A DNA stretch of 64,000 nucleotides from Jiulongibacter sediminis. GTDB taxonomy: Bacteria; Bacteroidota; Bacteroidia; Cytophagales; Spirosomataceae. Position 1 is the first letter of the stretch; every line of letters starts with the position of its first letter. A program made the translations under genes and the position numbers. The stretch is from assembly GCF_001306455.1 (NCBI RefSeq), contig NZ_LGTQ01000006.1, positions 496,001 to 560,000 on the forward strand. The letters run 5' to 3'. A model generated the notes under the pieces. The model worked only from the letters and a program-made list of their open reading frames with translations. It was not told where the DNA came from and ran no database searches. Positions 1,917 to 63,699 of the stretch are shown in pieces.

Positions 1917-3379
1917 TACAGTTGACGTTGCCAGGACAAAGATAGACCGATGTTTTGATCATACAAGCGACCATGGTCCATCATGAATTGTCCTGAAATA
2001 AGGCTGGATCCGGCTTGGTATATCAGTTGTAGACTCCCGCTGTATTGACTCAAATGAATGGAGCGGGAATAGGTTCCAAAATTCCGGCTATAAACCTGTT
2101 TAAGCGTGTAGCTCAGTTTAGGCTTGAGTTTTCCTTGGAGAGAAAGGTAATAATACTTTAAACGATTATTGAATCGCCTTTGATTTTGTCCTTCAAAAAG
2201 AATAAAGGGCGTTCCCAGTATTTGATTTTGGTATGACCAACTTTGGTATTGACCGTGGAAAAAGTAATTATCAATCTCACCGTAATTGCTTTCCTGGTAT
2301 TTTCCAAAACGATACCGGCCCTGGCTTTTACTGTAAAAAAACTCTGCGGTAATATTTTGTAAGAATTTACCATTCGGCAGGCTTATGCTAATACCATGAA
2401 GGCCATCCTCGATATTATTTAAATTATAAAGGGAGCGGGCAAAGTCATAAGGTTGTTGTTTATACAATAACCAGACAGTATTCTCTCCTTTGTATTGAAA
2501 AGAAATATCAACTGAACCTAGTTGATTTCCTACTGCTAAGCCACCATCATATCCGGGCACTTTTGAGGGATCAGGGGGGGTGAATTTTTGAAGAAACGGT
2601 AAAATGATATACTGATAGGAGTAGAGCGGGTAGGGGGCTAATTTCCCAGCTATAGTTACCGTATATTGACTGTCGTCTTCAAGCAAGTCAGAATACCCGC
2701 CCCACATGACCTGATGGTTTATTCCGGCCGTTACCTGAACTTTTGAATTTGGCTTCCCAATTCTTCCATAAAGCCATTTTTGATGAAGCCAATGACCTTG
2801 TATTATGGAGTCTTTGCCAAACCACCCGTGCGAAATACCGGCATTAAAACTGATTCTATCCTTTTTACCAAGTGCAATATATTTTGGCGTATGGATCTGA
2901 ATTTTAGGCATCGGCAAGGCATTACCGGACCAGATATAAGAGCCGGAGGTATGGGTGGTGTCAGTTAATCCAAATATTTCTTTCCTTCTTCCGCCATACA
3001 ATTCCCAATGTTTATGCCGCAGTTTGACAAAGGCTTCCGGAACGATCAATCGTGTTTTATTGGATTGCTGTACAATGAGTTGTGCACCATAGCCCATCGA
3101 GAAGGGTTTTAATGTCGATTTTTTCTGAAAAAGGCTGTCATAGTCTTGCTGTACATTCAGATAGCCTTGTAAGAAATGAGGAGCATCAGGGTATTGATCG
3201 TAATCATTTGCTCTTAACCAGAAAGGAGTTGTACCCGCTGAGGACACTCCGGCTTCAAGTCCCAAATAAACAGCTGGTTTCAGGTTCTTTTGATGCTGAC
3301 CGAAAACGACGGCACTCAAACCCAGTAACACTCCGAGGAAAGCCAGGCCTTTTTTAGCGTAGTAGGACCATATAACCAT
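1913..3379 (-). CDS. Capsule assembly Wzi family outer-membrane protein (first copy)
   Basis: 488 residues, paralogous to the next gene in the operon: the same order of blocks is seen (TPFWLRANDYDQYP, LYGGRRKEIFGLTD, SGSYIWSGNALPMPK, HGWFGKD, NHQVMWGG). The N-terminus has a hydrophobic segment (AFLGVLLGLSAVVFGQ), consistent with a signal peptide. The gene begins inside the last 26 bases of the upstream T9SS-sorted protein gene, so the three genes are tightly packed. The tandem copies look like an old duplication because many positions between the conserved blocks differ. Role in capsule or exopolysaccharide anchoring is inferred from the family. Confidence 0.85.
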   Translation of the reverse strand: MVIWSYYAKKGLAFLGVLLGLSAVVFGQHQKNLKPAVYLGLEAGVSSAGTTPFWLRANDYDQYPDAPHFLQGYLNVQQDYDSLFQKKSTLKPFSMGYGAQLIVQQSNKTRLIVPEAFVKLRHKHWELYGGRRKEIFGLTDTTHTSGSYIWSGNALPMPKIQIHTPKYIALGKKDRISFNAGISHGWFGKDSIIQGHWLHQKWLYGRIGKPNSKVQVTAGINHQVMWGGYSDLLEDDSQYTVTIAGKLAPYPLYSYQYIILPFLQKFTPPDPSKVPGYDGGLAVGNQLGSVDISFQYKGENTVWLLYKQQPYDFARSLYNLNNIEDGLHGISISLPNGKFLQNITAEFFYSKSQGRYRFGKYQESNYGEIDNYFFHGQYQSWSYQNQILGTPFILFEGQNQRRFNNRLKYYYLSLQGKLKPKLSYTLKQVYSRNFGTYSRSIHLSQYSGSLQLIYQAGSSLISGQFMMDHGRLYDQNIGLSLSWQRQLY

Positions 3380-5366
3380 GTTTGTGGATTTCTTCGTTTT
3401 GTTTATTAGTGGCTTTTAGGGCATACAGATAGGTGCCACTGGGTAGGGGGCTTCCATTGAGCGTTCCGTCCCAGATCTCTTTAGGATCAGTGCTTCGAAA
3501 AACCTCATGAGCCAGTCGATCATAAATGAAAAGTTCGAAACTCGACAGTGAACTGAGGTTACCCTTGATTTCAAAAGTGTCATTTATTTGATCTCCATTT
3601 GGACTAAAGGCAGTAGGGAAGTAAAGGTTGGTCGATATTGGGATTAAGACCTGATTTGAAAAACTTTCAAGTCCCGATTGACTTATGACCTTCAATTTAT
3701 ATCTGGCGGAATTCTCGAACATTTCCAGATTGGGAGAATGTTCAAATTTCTCTGCAGGGAACGAGTTTATAAGTTCGAAACTTAACGTTTGTTCATTTTG
3801 GCTAAAGAGGGAATAACCTACAACTTCTTCTTTAGCAAAAGGGTTATTGCTAGTCCAATTCAAGGCTTCAGCATTTGCCGAGAGCTCAACAATACAAACC
3901 TCCGGGCTATTTTCACTCAAATTATGACATTGGTCTCGAAAAAAAACAGAAAAACAATTTTCATCATTTACAACATTGAAAATGTTTTTGTCGGTAGAAA
4001 TACTATCCAAGGCAATACTTTCTCCACTTTTTACCAGCATATATTTCTCTCTTTCTATGGGCCAAACGCTATTATCATTGAAATAAATTGATTTAGATTC
4101 ATCATCGTTATAGGTGATGTAGAGATCAGTTATTGCCGGAGGTTTGATTTCATCTAAGTCTGTGCAGATTTTGTTCGAGATACTGACACTCGAATATCCA
4201 ATTGAAGCTCCAAACTTCGGTATCCCTGAGACAATTGTCTCTATTTGATAACAGTAGTTTTTAGTGCATTCTATGTCGTCTGAGAAGGGTGGTAAGATGT
4301 TTTCAATTTTCGAAACAACCCCATCTTCTTCCTTGATAAGGTTGTACGTTACATTTTGAGTTTCACCATTGGATCCAAATAGTGTGTTCAGGCCTGTCGG
4401 ATGCAAGACCCAGTTTAAAACTGCAGCATCTCTTGTGATTTCCATAAACTTTAAAGGAGTCGTACAAACCTCTCCGGAACTTTCAAAGCAACCTCCGGAA
4501 TTTCGGAAGGTAGCAAAACACATTTGGGTATCAACATTTTGATACTGAAGTGACGAAATTCCGGGGACAATAGTTGTCTCCGCCTGATTATTATTATAGG
4601 AGTTAGGTGGTACTCGCCTAAAAATCCTGTGATCAGTATCCAAGCCGTCGAAAACTAGTTCAATCTTTTGCTCATCTTCAATTAAATAAAGAGAGTCGAT
4701 GTTCGGATAGTTTCCACCTTCGGTCATCTCTACATTCACTACAACCTCAGTAGCACAATTGACAGAATTGTCTGAAAATAGACCTTTTACAGTAATTGGT
4801 CTCTCTGATTGTTGGTCATTAAATGAATGTGACTTCTCTAATGGTAAACTGCTGCCAAAGTCAAGAGTTCCATCTCCCCAATCTATCTGATACGAATCAA
4901 AATTATTTTGAGGCAAAAGCGGAATGGTGACATTTATTCTGTTTCCATTGCATGAGGTGTAACTAAACACTGGCTTATTATTCGCCCTCACCGTCACATT
5001 CTTACACGAATAAAAGTCATCTCCGTTATTGTCTTTGCCGTACTGAAGAATGGTGTAGGTGGTGTTTTCGTCTTCTGCAAAATAAAGGTTTGTTGTGGAG
5101 GAAGTAAGGAGGCCAGAATTCAATACTTCATCAAGCGATTCTCCATTGTAATAGAAGTGGTATTGAACATTATTGAGACCGGAAGTATTTTTTACTTTAA
5201 TTGTTAATGGTCCACAGCCAGAAGATGGCCCGTCAAATTCAAATCCACCAGGCGAAGCACTTTCGCACAAACTTTGTCCATGTATTGCCGTTGCAAAAAG
5301 CAACACAAACCCACCTGGGAACAAGAGTTTTCTGACAAAATAGTATAGGCGATAGAGGATTTTCAT
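3354..5366 (-). CDS. Large secreted protein with T9SS C-terminal sorting domain (gliding-motility type)
   Basis: 670 residues. There is an N-terminal signal segment (about residues 8-30, ending ATAIHGQS), then several PKD/Ig-like and fibronectin-type beta domains with paired cysteines (for example FSYTSCNGN and CATEV). The C-terminal 90 residues begin FPTAFSPNGDQINDTFEIKG and end with DGTLNGSPLPSGTYLYALK, the classic CHU_C/type B sorting domain recognised by the type IX secretion system. The protein is therefore predicted to be exported and attached to the surface. Its central part matches no function that I recognise. First gene of the operon with the two Wzi-like genes, which suggests a surface-polysaccharide partner role (inference). 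Confidence 0.86.
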   Translation of the reverse strand: MKILYRLYYFVRKLLFPGGFVLLFATAIHGQSLCESASPGGFEFDGPSSGCGPLTIKVKNTSGLNNVQYHFYYNGESLDEVLNSGLLTSSTTNLYFAEDENTTYTILQYGKDNNGDDFYSCKNVTVRANNKPVFSYTSCNGNRINVTIPLLPQNNFDSYQIDWGDGTLDFGSSLPLEKSHSFNDQQSERPITVKGLFSDNSVNCATEVVVNVEMTEGGNYPNIDSLYLIEDEQKIELVFDGLDTDHRIFRRVPPNSYNNNQAETTIVPGISSLQYQNVDTQMCFATFRNSGGCFESSGEVCTTPLKFMEITRDAAVLNWVLHPTGLNTLFGSNGETQNVTYNLIKEEDGVVSKIENILPPFSDDIECTKNYCYQIETIVSGIPKFGASIGYSSVSISNKICTDLDEIKPPAITDLYITYNDDESKSIYFNDNSVWPIEREKYMLVKSGESIALDSISTDKNIFNVVNDENCFSVFFRDQCHNLSENSPEVCIVELSANAEALNWTSNNPFAKEEVVGYSLFSQNEQTLSFELINSFPAEKFEHSPNLEMFENSARYKLKVISQSGLESFSNQVLIPISTNLYFPTAFSPNGDQINDTFEIKGNLSSLSSFELFIYDRLAHEVFRSTDPKEIWDGTLNGSPLPSGTYLYALKATNKQNEEIHKHGYMVLLR

Positions 5367-5444: not shown

Positions 5445-5479
5445 AAGACAAGAGATTTAAGACGCAAGACAAGAGACCC
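5445..5479. repeat. Heptanucleotide-period repeat (xAGAxxx units)
   Basis: Five consecutive 7-base units read AAGACAA, GAGATTT, AAGACGC, AAGACAA, GAGACCC. The period is exact although the units are degenerate. Confidence 0.6.
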
Positions 5480-5666
5480 TCTACCGTTCGGCCCTTCGGT
5501 CCCGGCTTATAGAGGCCCAAACCAGTTATATAAAAGTTTGCTTGAAAGGCTTGTTTTCCTTCGACATATATTATTGGAACACTGATAGTACGGATATAAC
5601 TGATTTACATAGATCTTGTTTGGGATGGTGTCCAGTCAACCCTATTCAAGCATAGACAAACACCTG

Positions 5667-5756
5667 TCATCGGCCATCCGTCATCGGTCATCCCTGTCCG
5701 GCAAGCGGGTGTTCTCCAAAAACACCCGTCATCGGTCATCTGTCATCCGTCAAAGC
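5667..5756. repeat. Two heptanucleotide-period arrays (TCATCSG units) flanking a hairpin
   Basis: Units TCATCGG, CCATCCG, TCATCGG, TCATCCC, TGTCCGG at 5667-5701 and TCATCGG, TCATCTG, TCATCCG at 5729-5749. Between them is a perfect 8-bp stem with a 7-base loop (5706-5728). There are no unique spacers, so this is not a CRISPR array. Confidence 0.65.
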
Positions 5757-60588: not shown

Positions 60589-61983
60589 TTAAATCACAAA
60601 ACCCTCTTGATGCTGCGGAATTTCAATGGTTTTGAAACCCATTCCATGGAGTTTTTCTGCAAAGGCTCGTTGAGTGTCAATTTCTCCGTGAACCAGAAAA
60701 ACCTTTTTAACTTTTGAAGCATCCTGGCAGCTCAGGTAATCCATCATTTCTTCGTAATCGCCATGTGCTGAGAAAGAATCCATGATTTCTACGTTGGCAT
60801 TGAGTTCCAGCTCATCACCAAAGATTCTGATTTTTGGTGCTTTGATCTTGATTTGATAACCCAATGAACTTGGCGAGCAGTAACCCACAATCATGATGGT
60901 GTTCTTCGGGTCTTCGCAGTTATTTTTGATATGGTGCTTGATTCTGCCTGCCTCGGCCATTCCGGAAGCCGAAATAATGATGCAAGGCTGATCATAAAAG
61001 TTAAGGGCCTTAGAATCGTCTACTTTTGTAATGTAATGCAGCGTTTCAAAACCGAATGCATCGCCGTCTCTTTTGATATAATCCAGGATTTCAGGGTTAA
61101 ACTCTTCCTCATGTTTCCGCATGACCAGCGTGGCTTTTACCGAAAGCGGGCTATCAATATAAACCGGTATTTTCGGCAATTTTCCTTCACTCTCCAGAAT
61201 GTCCAAAGCATAAATTAGCTCCTGTGTCCGGTCTACAGAGAATGCAGGAATGATCAGCTTTCCACCTTTTTCTACGCAGGTTTCTTTTACAACTTCTAAA
61301 AGGCGAGCCCTCATATCCTCTGAAGGAGCATGCAGGCGGTCGCCGTAAGTAGATTCACAAATGATATAATCTGATTGTGGAAAAGCCTCCGGACTTCTTA
61401 AAATCTTATCATTTGGTCTTCCAATATCACCGGTAAAGAATATCGACTTTTTGTGCTGATCTTCTTCGTATTCGATAAAGATGCCTGCACTGCCAAGAAT
61501 ATGACCTGTTTCGTAAAAGCTGAAGGTAACCCCGGGCTCAATCTCAAATTTCTGGTGGTAACCCACGGTTTTCATCAGCTCAATTGCCTTTTCTGCATCT
61601 TCTTCTTCATATAAAGCTTCCAGCAGTTCACGACCCTGCTTTTGTCGCCTTTTATTAATGCGTTTTACATCACTCTGCTGAATTTTTGCGGAGTCCAGCA
61701 GCATGATCTGGCAAAGGCTTTTAGTGGCGGGTGTACAATAAACGGTTCCGTTAAATCCTTCTTTGACCAGTCTTGGAAGCAATCCCGTATGGTCAATATG
61801 AGCATGCGATAGAATCACGTAATCAACATCTGCCGGGTTAAACCCAAAGGAGAGATTAAGCTCTGTAGTACCAATACCTTGAAAAAGACCGCAATCCAAA
61901 AGAATCTTGGTGCCTTTATTGGTAGTGAGAAGGTGCTTGCTACCGGTTACCCGACGTGCAGCTCCGTAAAATTGTACTTTCAT
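60589..61983 (-). CDS. MBL-fold RNA-processing exonuclease, beta-CASP family
   Basis: 464 residues. The metallo-beta-lactamase motif is SHAHIDHTG (H60, H62, D64, H65); later GHILGSAGIFIEY with a metal histidine and FTGDIGR with the metal aspartate. The beta-CASP part includes STYGDRLH, PAFSVDRTQELIYAL, and C-terminal SASGMAEAGRIKHHIKN and FSAHGDYEEMMDYL. Predicted RNase J/CPSF73-like nuclease acting on RNA in the cytoplasm; direction and substrate not determinable. Lies downstream of purH, separated by a repeat-containing gap. Confidence 0.92.
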   Translation of the reverse strand: MKVQFYGAARRVTGSKHLLTTNKGTKILLDCGLFQGIGTTELNLSFGFNPADVDYVILSHAHIDHTGLLPRLVKEGFNGTVYCTPATKSLCQIMLLDSAKIQQSDVKRINKRRQKQGRELLEALYEEEDAEKAIELMKTVGYHQKFEIEPGVTFSFYETGHILGSAGIFIEYEEDQHKKSIFFTGDIGRPNDKILRSPEAFPQSDYIICESTYGDRLHAPSEDMRARLLEVVKETCVEKGGKLIIPAFSVDRTQELIYALDILESEGKLPKIPVYIDSPLSVKATLVMRKHEEEFNPEILDYIKRDGDAFGFETLHYITKVDDSKALNFYDQPCIIISASGMAEAGRIKHHIKNNCEDPKNTIMIVGYCSPSSLGYQIKIKAPKIRIFGDELELNANVEIMDSFSAHGDYEEMMDYLSCQDASKVKKVFLVHGEIDTQRAFAEKLHGMGFKTIEIPQHQEGFVI

Positions 61984-61990
61984 TTCAAAT

Positions 61991-62053
61991 AGGTTTGAGG
62001 TCAGAGGTCAGAAGTTTGAAGTCGATTACTTCCGACTTCAAACTTCCAACTTC
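61991..62053. repeat. 63-bp array of nine heptanucleotide units, strand-switching
   Basis: Units AGGTTTG, AGGTCAG, AGGTCAG, AAGTTTG, AAGTCGA, then TTACTTC, CGACTTC, AAACTTC, CAACTTC. The second half is close to the reverse complement of the first, giving a perfect 14-bp stem GAAGTTTGAAGTCG / CGACTTCAAACTTC (62011-62024 and 62033-62046). No T-tract, so not an ordinary terminator. Confidence 0.75.
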
Positions 62054-62057
62054 TTGA

Positions 62058-63572
62058 TTAATGTAAAAAGTGTCTTACACCCGTCATCACCATTGCTACG
62101 CCATTTTCATTGCAATAATCTATGCTGAGTTGGTCGCGGATAGAGCCACCCGGCTGTACTACGGCTGTAATTCCAGCGTTATGACCGATCTCTACGCAAT
62201 CCGGGAACGGGAAGAAGGCTTCTGAAGCCATCACCGCACCATTTAGATCAAAACCAAATTCTTTAGCCTTGTCAATAGCCTGTTTGAGAGCATCCACTCT
62301 TGAGGTTTGACCTACCCCGCAAGCCAGTAGTTGACCTTCTTTCGCCAAAACCACATTGTTTGATTTTAGGTGCTTGCAGATCTTCAAGGCGAATTCCAGA
62401 GCTTTTACTTCTGAATCGGTTGGTTTTTTCTCTGTTGCGGCGTTGAACTGGTCACCACCTTCCATGCTCATGTCTTTATCCTGCTCTAAAACGCCATTGA
62501 GAAGGGTTCTGTATTGTTTTTTGCCAAGGGTAACATCCTTTCTGATCAGCAATCTGCGATCTTTCTTCTTCGTCAAAATGTCCAAGGCTTCCTGATCAAA
62601 AGCCGGAGCTACCAGAATCTCAAAGAACAGCGAATGCATTTCTTCGGCAGTCGCTTTGTCAATGGTAGAATTGGTGATCAAAACACCACCAAAAGCAGAA
62701 ACCGGGTCGCAGGCCAATGCATTTTTGTACGCTTCATGCGTAGTGGCCGCTGAAGCCACCCCACAGGCGTTATTATGCTTCATGATCACAAAGGTGAGAT
62801 CATCAAACTCATCAATAAGCCTAACGGCAGCATCCGTATCCATCAGATTGTTGTACGACAACTCTTTTCCGTGAATCTGATCAAACATAGCATCGAGGTC
62901 GCCATAGAATGTGGCCGCCTGATGCGGATTTTCTCCGTATCGCAATGTTTTTGACGCACCAGCTCTGAAATTTCCGGCTCCCTCTGCTCCAGAGAAATAA
63001 CCATGAATGGCGGAGTCATAATGAGAACTAACCCCAAAAGCCTTCATGGCATAGTGCTTTCTATCTTCAAGATCGGTACCACAGCCTTTTTCTTTCAAAA
63101 TGTCATAGACATCATCGTACTGATCTCTGTTTGACACGATAAGTACATCCTGATAATTTTTGGCCGCTCCTCTGATCAGGGCAATACCCCCGATGTCAAT
63201 TTTTTCAATGATATCATCCTCAGAAGCACCTGAAGCTACGGTTTCTTCAAAAGGATACAGGTCAACAATAACAAGATCGATGGCAGGAATCTCAAATTCA
63301 GCAGCCGTTTTTACATCGTCTTCGTTTTCTCTTCTGTGCAGAATGCCTCCGAATACTTTCGGGTGGAGTGTTTTTACTCTTCCACCAAAAATTGAAGGGT
63401 AAGAAGTAAGGTCTTCAACGGCCGTTACCGGGATACCAAGGTCTTCAATGAATTTCTGAGTTCCGCCGGTAGAGTAAACCTGAACATCGTTTTCATGAAG
63501 TAGTTTAGCGATTTTATCTAAACCATCTTTGTAAAATACTGAGATCAGTGCCGACTGAATTTTCTTTGCCAT
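62058..63572 (-). CDS. purH: Bifunctional AICAR formyltransferase / IMP cyclohydrolase
   Basis: 504 residues from ATG 63572 (an upstream frame extension of 39 codons has no purH sequence). Last two steps of IMP synthesis. N-terminal IMP cyclohydrolase: SALISVFYKDGLDKIAKLLHENDVQVYSTGGTQKF, SYPSIFGGRVKTLHPK, VDLYPFEETV. C-terminal AICAR transformylase: LRYGENPHQAATFYGD, FVIMKHNNACGVA with the catalytic lysine/histidine motif, and CGVGQTSRVDAL. TATTTTTG, a perfect -7 on the minus strand (63607-63614), lies upstream. Confidence 0.97.
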   Translation of the reverse strand: MAKKIQSALISVFYKDGLDKIAKLLHENDVQVYSTGGTQKFIEDLGIPVTAVEDLTSYPSIFGGRVKTLHPKVFGGILHRRENEDDVKTAAEFEIPAIDLVIVDLYPFEETVASGASEDDIIEKIDIGGIALIRGAAKNYQDVLIVSNRDQYDDVYDILKEKGCGTDLEDRKHYAMKAFGVSSHYDSAIHGYFSGAEGAGNFRAGASKTLRYGENPHQAATFYGDLDAMFDQIHGKELSYNNLMDTDAAVRLIDEFDDLTFVIMKHNNACGVASAATTHEAYKNALACDPVSAFGGVLITNSTIDKATAEEMHSLFFEILVAPAFDQEALDILTKKKDRRLLIRKDVTLGKKQYRTLLNGVLEQDKDMSMEGGDQFNAATEKKPTDSEVKALEFALKICKHLKSNNVVLAKEGQLLACGVGQTSRVDALKQAIDKAKEFGFDLNGAVMASEAFFPFPDCVEIGHNAGITAVVQPGGSIRDQLSIDYCNENGVAMVMTGVRHFLH

Positions 63573-63606
63573 CGTAGTTATTAGATTCTTTTGATAATTA
63601 AGAGTG

Positions 63607-63614
63607 CAAAAATA
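63607..63614 (-). promoter_or_regulatory. -7 promoter element of purH
   Basis: On the minus strand TATTTTTG matches TAnnTTTG; it lies 34 bases before the purH start codon. Confidence 0.5.
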
Positions 63615-63699
63615 AGGCTTTTTGATCGTCGAGCTTAATTTCGCTGAGAGTTTAAAAGATTGTGACCGGTACTGTGTATCTTTTACCAAATTTATCAGA

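Follow-up and report, generated by a model that had tools for sequence, protein, structure and literature searches.

Heptameric repeats lying between genes are known from several groups of bacteria. Those of Xanthomonas (GGGAATC and GGGANTN) and Nostoc (GGGGA(C/T)T) were described by Rehm et al. 2015 (PMC4692102), and the Xanthomonas repeats occur as 70 and 75 convergent pairs and lie nearer to the ORF on their 5' side (mean 28 versus 160 nt), while the Nostoc repeats form few pairs. TAACTGA repeats occur in Beggiatoaceae, Cyanobacteria and some Bacteroidetes (MacGregor 2015, PMC4679880); in Flexibacter litoralis 12 of 14 are forward before start codons and one is reversed right after a stop, and some Bacteroidetes gaps carry larger heptamer assemblages. 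Mrazek et al. 2007, as cited in PMC4679880 and PMC4692102, found among long heptanucleotide simple sequence repeats that 7 is the commonest long unit in many prokaryote genomes, and proposed slippage by way of a 7-nt polymerase contact. With 7 reported, via PMC4679880, as the commonest long repeat unit of many bacterial genomes, the cause of such repeats is of general interest.

We take the arrays described below to be lineage-specific heptameric repeats of the kind in print for Xanthomonas, Nostoc and Beggiatoa, with a polarity that is in print for Xanthomonas. As in other intergenic heptameric repeats of bacteria, units of 7 nt are in excess over other lengths and are mainly intergenic. They share with the Xanthomonas and Nostoc repeats heterogeneous heptads and a mostly intergenic position, and the Xanthomonas polarity matches that of the exact-core runs of this genome. 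However, those repeats have G-tract units that fold as quadruplexes, whereas here there are several core families in one genome and none of the cores (AAGAY, GARGT, GATGA) contains GGG, so that the tracts of at least three G per unit expected of a quadruplex heptad are absent. The TAACTGA repeats resemble ours as intergenic sets of heptads close to ORFs, but there the unit is a single exact sequence and the Beggiatoa genome has few related ones, whereas our units are degenerate and of several families. The repeats of Mrazek et al. 2007 are, by the citing papers, exact and longer than expected by chance, while ours are short and degenerate.

The array between purH and the RNase gene

The window is the whole stretch of DNA analysed, of 64,000 nt, and its relevant features are given in Table 1. 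The 74-nt gap between purH and the RNase gene, both on the minus strand, is filled by nine in-phase heptads (61991-62053), AGGTTTG AGGTCAG AGGTCAG AAGTTTG AAGTCGA followed by TTACTTC CGACTTC AAACTTC CAACTTC. The first-pass annotation, made from the letters of the sequence, had reported nine consecutive heptads, the first five of the form ARGTYNG; the nine units do stand in a single phase, but ARGTYNG fits only four of the five at 61991-62025, the fifth (AAGTCGA) ending in A. The 14-bp stem that it proposed is confirmed as a perfect stem, 62011-62024 with 62033-62046, closed by a loop of 8 nt. In the direction of the mRNA a GAAGTNN block begins 4 nt past the purH stop, and the pyrimidine block stops 7 nt before the next start codon.

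Table 1. Features of the window that bear on the heptad arrays
Position	Strand	Feature	Basis
61991..62025	+	Purine-type heptad block, GARGTYN family, five units (fifth imperfect)	Heptad reading, family clustering
62026..62053	-	Pyrimidine-type block on +, being GARGTYN heptads on the minus strand; four units; 4 nt after purH stop	
62011..62024	.	Stem arm, 14 bp perfect, partner 62033-62046	RNA fold and sister-species pairs
62033..62046	.	Stem arm, partner 62011-62024; loop 62025-62032	Fold, sister-species pairs
62058..63689	-	purH (AICAR transformylase / IMP cyclohydrolase), upstream gene, same strand	
60589..61983	-	RNase-like gene (beta-CASP, metallo-beta-lactamase fold), downstream, same strand; 7 nt between its start codon and the heptad block	
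5445..5479	+	AAGAYNN-family array (AAGACAA GAGATTT AAGACGC AAGACAA GAGACCC)	
5661..5692	-	GATGACN-family array (GTCATCN on +)	
5723..5752	-	GATGACN-family array (GTCATCN on +)	

Folded as RNA, the minus strand of the gap gives an 18-bp stem, G-U pairs included, at -30.5 kcal/mol (z -6.0, with none of 200 shuffles as good), and the plus strand folded as DNA has a z of -5.1. A stable stem-loop just past the purH stop is what one would see in an intrinsic terminator, and in a sister species TTTTTT follows the same stem, but in this genome there is no T-run directly after the stem on either strand and the heptads carry on instead, so the purH hairpin may not terminate. The only Rfam match, to a microRNA family, scored 18.3 bits against a cut-off of 200, and we took it as chance.

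Comparison of the purH gap with a sister species

G001 is a sister species in the same genus, its RNase being 82% identical, and its gap after the matching purH end is 79 nt long. The alignment of the two gaps covers 42 columns and scores 17; shuffles of 2-mer blocks average 7.5, and none of 1000 scored as well. In the G001 gap TTTTTT follows a stem of 15 bp, which makes a textbook terminator. Twelve base pairs are formed in both species, nine of them unchanged, two with compensatory changes, one with a one-sided change and none broken, while at the stem ends three pairs of one species are impossible in the other. No lag-7 array was called in the G001 gap, this being the one sister locus compared. 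The corresponding gap of G016, from another genus, has a different stem and a T-run.

The stem is conserved as a terminator-type hairpin, now without its T-run, two species being few for a claim of conservation. As the sister gap aligns and has the same hairpin with compensatory changes, the strand switch half-way through 61991-62053 is the two arms of a hairpin, and it is also an instance of a wider tendency for purine-type blocks to precede pyrimidine-type blocks. Given that G001 has the hairpin and that G016 has a different stem with a T-run, the hairpin either predates the clear heptad pattern or evolves together with the heptads.

In two other genera there are pyrimidine-type heptad arrays just before the start codon of the same RNase (ACTCCNN and CCTTTCA; L009 1436-1476 and L013 1412-1460).

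Period 7 in the genome and its relatives

We sampled 2.06 Mb of the 4.47 Mb genome, consisting of the window and 2.0 Mb of stretches (a first set of 1.264 Mb and a second of 0.8 Mb), and called arrays at 19 or more of 28 lag matches in the first set and at 18 in the second. The ORF calls were home-made, so that distances err by some nt. In the noncoding DNA of the first set, for which lags 4 to 22 were compared, lag 7 has 26 arrays, its multiples 14 and 21 have 13 and 7, and every remaining lag has 0-3. In that of the second set, compared over lags 4 to 16, the numbers are 17 at lag 7, 13 at lag 14 and 0-6 at each of the rest. A further 8 and 5 lag-7 arrays respectively are in called ORFs. Across the gaps of the 2.06 Mb, 7 is the only period in excess, apart from its multiples.

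The arrays take up about 1.5% of gap bases. The autocorrelation proposed with the first-pass annotation as a check gives a divided answer, as averaged over all noncoding DNA there is no visible lag-7 peak (0.276, with lags 2-30 at 0.264-0.282), while the local lag-7 arrays, 26 and 17, are far above those at other lags. The flat mean is what would be expected if the arrays were chance or low-complexity DNA, but in each of two separate genome samples the lag-7 arrays are many times as numerous as those at other lags, and they are also in excess at foreign loci among the matches listed, and we regard chance as extremely improbable.

Among relatives, G002 had no lag-7 arrays in 400 kb and G001 and G003 had none in 100 kb each, while G005 and G006 had three apiece, of which a crude ORF mask places one in an ORF. 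Three AAGAY cores with two free bases between them are matched 71 times in this genome and the reversed pattern not at all; there are 10 matches in G001, none in G002 and 24 in G047, and the pattern is present in 24 of 121 genomes of the family. Three GAAGT cores are matched 9 times here (reversed control 3) and are present in 12 of the 121 genomes. The genus thus has an array-rich member (this species), a poor one (G001) and one free of matches (G002), which makes the gain of arrays and its cause open to test.

In genus g13 (G014, G079, G090 and G099) the reversed patterns YAGAANN and TGAAGNN are frequent, with up to 38 matches on one strand. Frequent reversed patterns of this kind in some genera other than ours, most of all g13, point to other lineages having heptad families, and cores, of their own.

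One called ORF also contains some 150 bp of unbroken heptads whose unit changes slowly along the run (GGATGTC to TTCCATN to CGGTCAT; L086 15723-15876, G000 C27 about 715723).

Heptad families

When 32 arrays defined by lag alone were clustered with no preset core, 25 fell into three degenerate core families, AAGAYNN (12), GARGTYN (7) and GATGACN (6), the rest being one pair and five singles. Nearest-neighbour profile similarity was 0.586, against 0.515 for a column-permuted null (highest of 20, 0.532). Two other spots in the window had been noted for a 7-base period, and the three spots had been thought to share no sequence. The first of the two is an array as noted (5445-5479), but the second, given as 5667-5756, is two GTCATCN blocks (5661-5692 and 5723-5752) around 30 non-periodic bp, and for each of the three spots there are other loci with arrays of its family.

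One could suppose that the arrays are copies of a dispersed element, either REP/RAYT-like or some small mobile repeat, each reshuffled where it lies. REP elements occur as doublets, which the inverted block pairs resemble, and cores are common to many loci, as copying would give. The order of heptads should then be shared, and for AAGAY (25 arrays) it is weakly so, 2 of 200 shuffles being as good. For GARGT (9 arrays) there is no shared order, 172 of 200 shuffles being as good, so the GARGT arrays do not look like copies of one array, and for GATGA, with 3 arrays only, the order is not clearly shared (26 of 200). The purH gap is alignable with, and about as long as, that of the sister species, and hence there was no insertion at 61991-62053. 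A RAYT/REP system was not taken up as the explanation, the genome having one marginal Y1-transposase match (PF01797, E 5e-4), at a level where RAYT and other Y1 proteins are not distinguished. On balance we think a copied element improbable.

In the AAGAY heptads all four bases occur at positions 6 and 7. Outside AAGAY runs the core drops to background at once, and the first heptad outside GARGT runs, and outside GTDB GAAGT runs among the matches listed, is slightly above background, the run edges being partly fixed by the definition of a run.

Three other features were seen in passing. A small inverted repeat, GGGTGTT ... AACACCC, lies between the two GTCATC blocks of the window (5707-5727), and at 3354-5366 of the window a gene encodes a C-terminal signal for type IX secretion (TIGR04131, PF13585), by which the host can be placed in the Bacteroidota. 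Elsewhere in the genome (L037 8244-8281, G000 C27 about 168244) a heptad array with a core unlike the three families is a perfect palindrome with 17-bp arms (ATTTGTGATTCGCAATT...).

Polarity of the arrays

For polarity we labelled as the reading strand the one on which the core reads AAGAY, GARGT or GATGA. Exact-core runs are in gaps in 30 of 31 cases, and 25 of these 30 are nearer to the ORF on their 5' side, 5 being nearer to the other ORF (p 0.0003). Within 15 nt of an ORF the count is 15 to 0 for the ORF on the 5' side, 8 of the edges being stops and 7 starts. All six gaps with cores in both orientations have the purine block first and then the pyrimidine block, and in four of them the cores differ. 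With arrays detected by lag and labelled by purine content, those of neutral content being excluded, 33 of 46 were nearer to the 5' ORF (p 0.0045). The polarity had been seen by eye in the first sample before testing, and both the 33 of 46 and the exact-core counts pool the first and second samples; in the second sample alone the purine-content label gives 7 of 11 (p 0.55), and the purine-first order is visible there in one clear gap (L283). Where a gap has both labels, the purine block comes first in all 9 cases at a threshold of 17, in all 7 at 18 and in 3 of 4 at 19, the remaining gap being mixed.

A general purine bias of gaps was rejected as the cause, as array-free gaps are flat at 0.46-0.54. 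The three families share one polarity, in which the purine strand leads away from the ORF edge, and this is shown statistically.

Of the 30-nt flanks of the arrays of this genome, taken on the purine strand, 17 of the 50 upstream ones and 13 of the 50 downstream ones contain a run of five or more T, against 14.8% of random gap 30-mers.

Arrays in other bacteria

A scan of GTDB for four successive GAAGTNN units found at least 119 stretches in many phyla. Among 77 GAAGT arrays with full flanks (80 of the matches listed), 23 have an ACTTC block no more than 120 bp away on the 3' side and 5 have one on the 5' side, the purine-then-pyrimidine order thus prevailing as in this genome; one array of the matches listed has such blocks on both sides. 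ACTTC was present in 18 of 582 control bins at the listed loci. Among the matches listed 78 of 123 arrays could be placed, those dropped being 33 in ORFs and 12 without flanking ORFs, and the placed arrays were nearer to the 5' ORF in 54 cases and to the other in 24 (p 0.0009). For these listed matches the preference rests on stop codons (39 of 46) and not on starts (15 of 32), and part of the stop effect may come from the array itself supplying the stop. With regard to polarity of the Xanthomonas type, it is present in the exact-core runs (25 of 30) and two-orientation gaps (6 of 6) of our genome, and is weaker or absent in our second set (7 of 11) and on the start side of the GTDB arrays (15 of 32 among the matches listed). 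Neighbouring pairs of arrays other than GAAGT were purine-first in 6 cases and pyrimidine-first in 3 among the matches listed, too few to decide.

Away from the GAAGT arrays, the noncoding DNA of the 119 listed loci has 105 arrays of period 7, 31 of period 14, 16 of period 8 and at most 11 of any other period from 4 to 16, and there are also 53 ORF-covered period-7 arrays of varied units. A universal consensus, RAWGWYN, to which the arrays of this genome had pointed, was tried and rejected. In 77 foreign arrays it scored 3.04, the null mean being 2.96 and the observed value being reached by 4 of 200 null means, a weak effect at most; the best scorers include GAAGT-like arrays, and in three arrays of relatives 114 of 200 null means were as high. 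The suggestion that a period is shared without shared sequence thus does well across lineages, where the period is common and any consensus is weak at most, and fails inside this genome, where the three families share cores.

Polarity of unrelated units in unrelated bacteria narrows the cause, as it needs no quadruplexes and is not a prediction of plain slippage.

Origin of the arrays

Our preferred explanation, which taken as a whole we give an even chance of being right, is that these are heptameric repeats made by a 7-nt step and tolerated in gaps, laid at purH over a shared hairpin that is kept for the purH transcript. The step would be one of replication or repair, by slippage or template switching, and the resulting arrays would be tolerated where they lie between genes. 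The purH hairpin is in this genome composed of, and lengthened by, GARGTYN heptads, and would presumably be kept as it ends or shields the purH transcript.

The first-pass annotation had suggested slippage or a protein reading every 7 bases. The commonness of the period across lineages favours a suggestion of this sort, but slippage as such does not show itself in the heptads. In 34 arrays nearer heptads are not more alike at distances 1-3 (0.624, 0.623 and 0.612), the values of 0.559 and 0.496 at distances 4 and 5 involving array ends, and at 74 nt against 79 nt the purH gap is not longer than that of the sister. Slippage would explain the step of 7, but predicts neither the polarity nor recurrent cores with free neighbours. 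A directional growth front was rejected, for it predicted a gradient from edge to edge and none was clear in three sets (p 0.84, 0.08 and 0.19).

Array regions number 6 in convergent, 15 in codirectional and 8 in divergent gaps, against 5.5, 16.4 and 7.1 expected, and 2 of 166 perfect hairpins are in arrays, which are 1.5% of gap bases. With neither an array excess in convergent gaps nor an enrichment of perfect hairpins, terminators were rejected as a general explanation, and the hairpin is particular to the purH site.

A possible but doubtful alternative to the 7-nt step is that the arrays are recognition sites for a machine, of protein or RNA, that follows one strand and reads the 5-nt core of each 7-nt unit, selection keeping the cores and their orientation and leaving the two spacer bases free. 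This would account for cores that are common to many loci when heptad order, as in GARGT, is not, for the free positions 6 and 7 of AAGAY, for a polarity common to three cores, and for the flat heptad similarity and unlengthened purH gap that count against slippage. Mismatches cluster in a small number of columns (variance 1.208; null mean 0.902, highest of 200 nulls 1.175), as recognition would have it, but slippage that copies a variant can also concentrate columns, and we rejected this as a sign of selection. Against recognition, the unit sequences vary between lineages, and the gene counts of candidate readers (cold-shock domain, Y1 transposase) gave it no support.

A candidate reader would be Rho, or another OB-fold protein, acting on pyrimidine RNA running into the ORF. 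The pyrimidine strands have C above G and are YC-rich (0.203 per nt, against 0.125 for matched background). The modelled Rho utilisation site is about 78 nt with C above G and a C every 11-13 nt (PMC6407284), whereas our blocks are shorter and have a step of 7, so that on sequence grounds Rho appears to fit the arrays in composition only.

Least conservatively, many phyla might share an undescribed polar process with a 7-nt step that writes or keeps heptads, the cores being set by lineage and the strand by the nearest ORF edge, start and stop alike, and the purH terminator hairpin would here have been rewritten base by base with no insertion; we think this unlikely.

Cold-shock proteins were also tried as readers. 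The heptamer preferred by B. subtilis CspB, given as d(GTCTTTG/C) in PMC7825780, resembles the complement of AAGAC, but the candidate was rejected on the numbers of PF00313 matches, which are one each in the array-rich G000 and G001 against three in the array-free G002, with none in G016 and two in G047. The single matches in G000 and G001 are weaker than those in most of the relatives listed.
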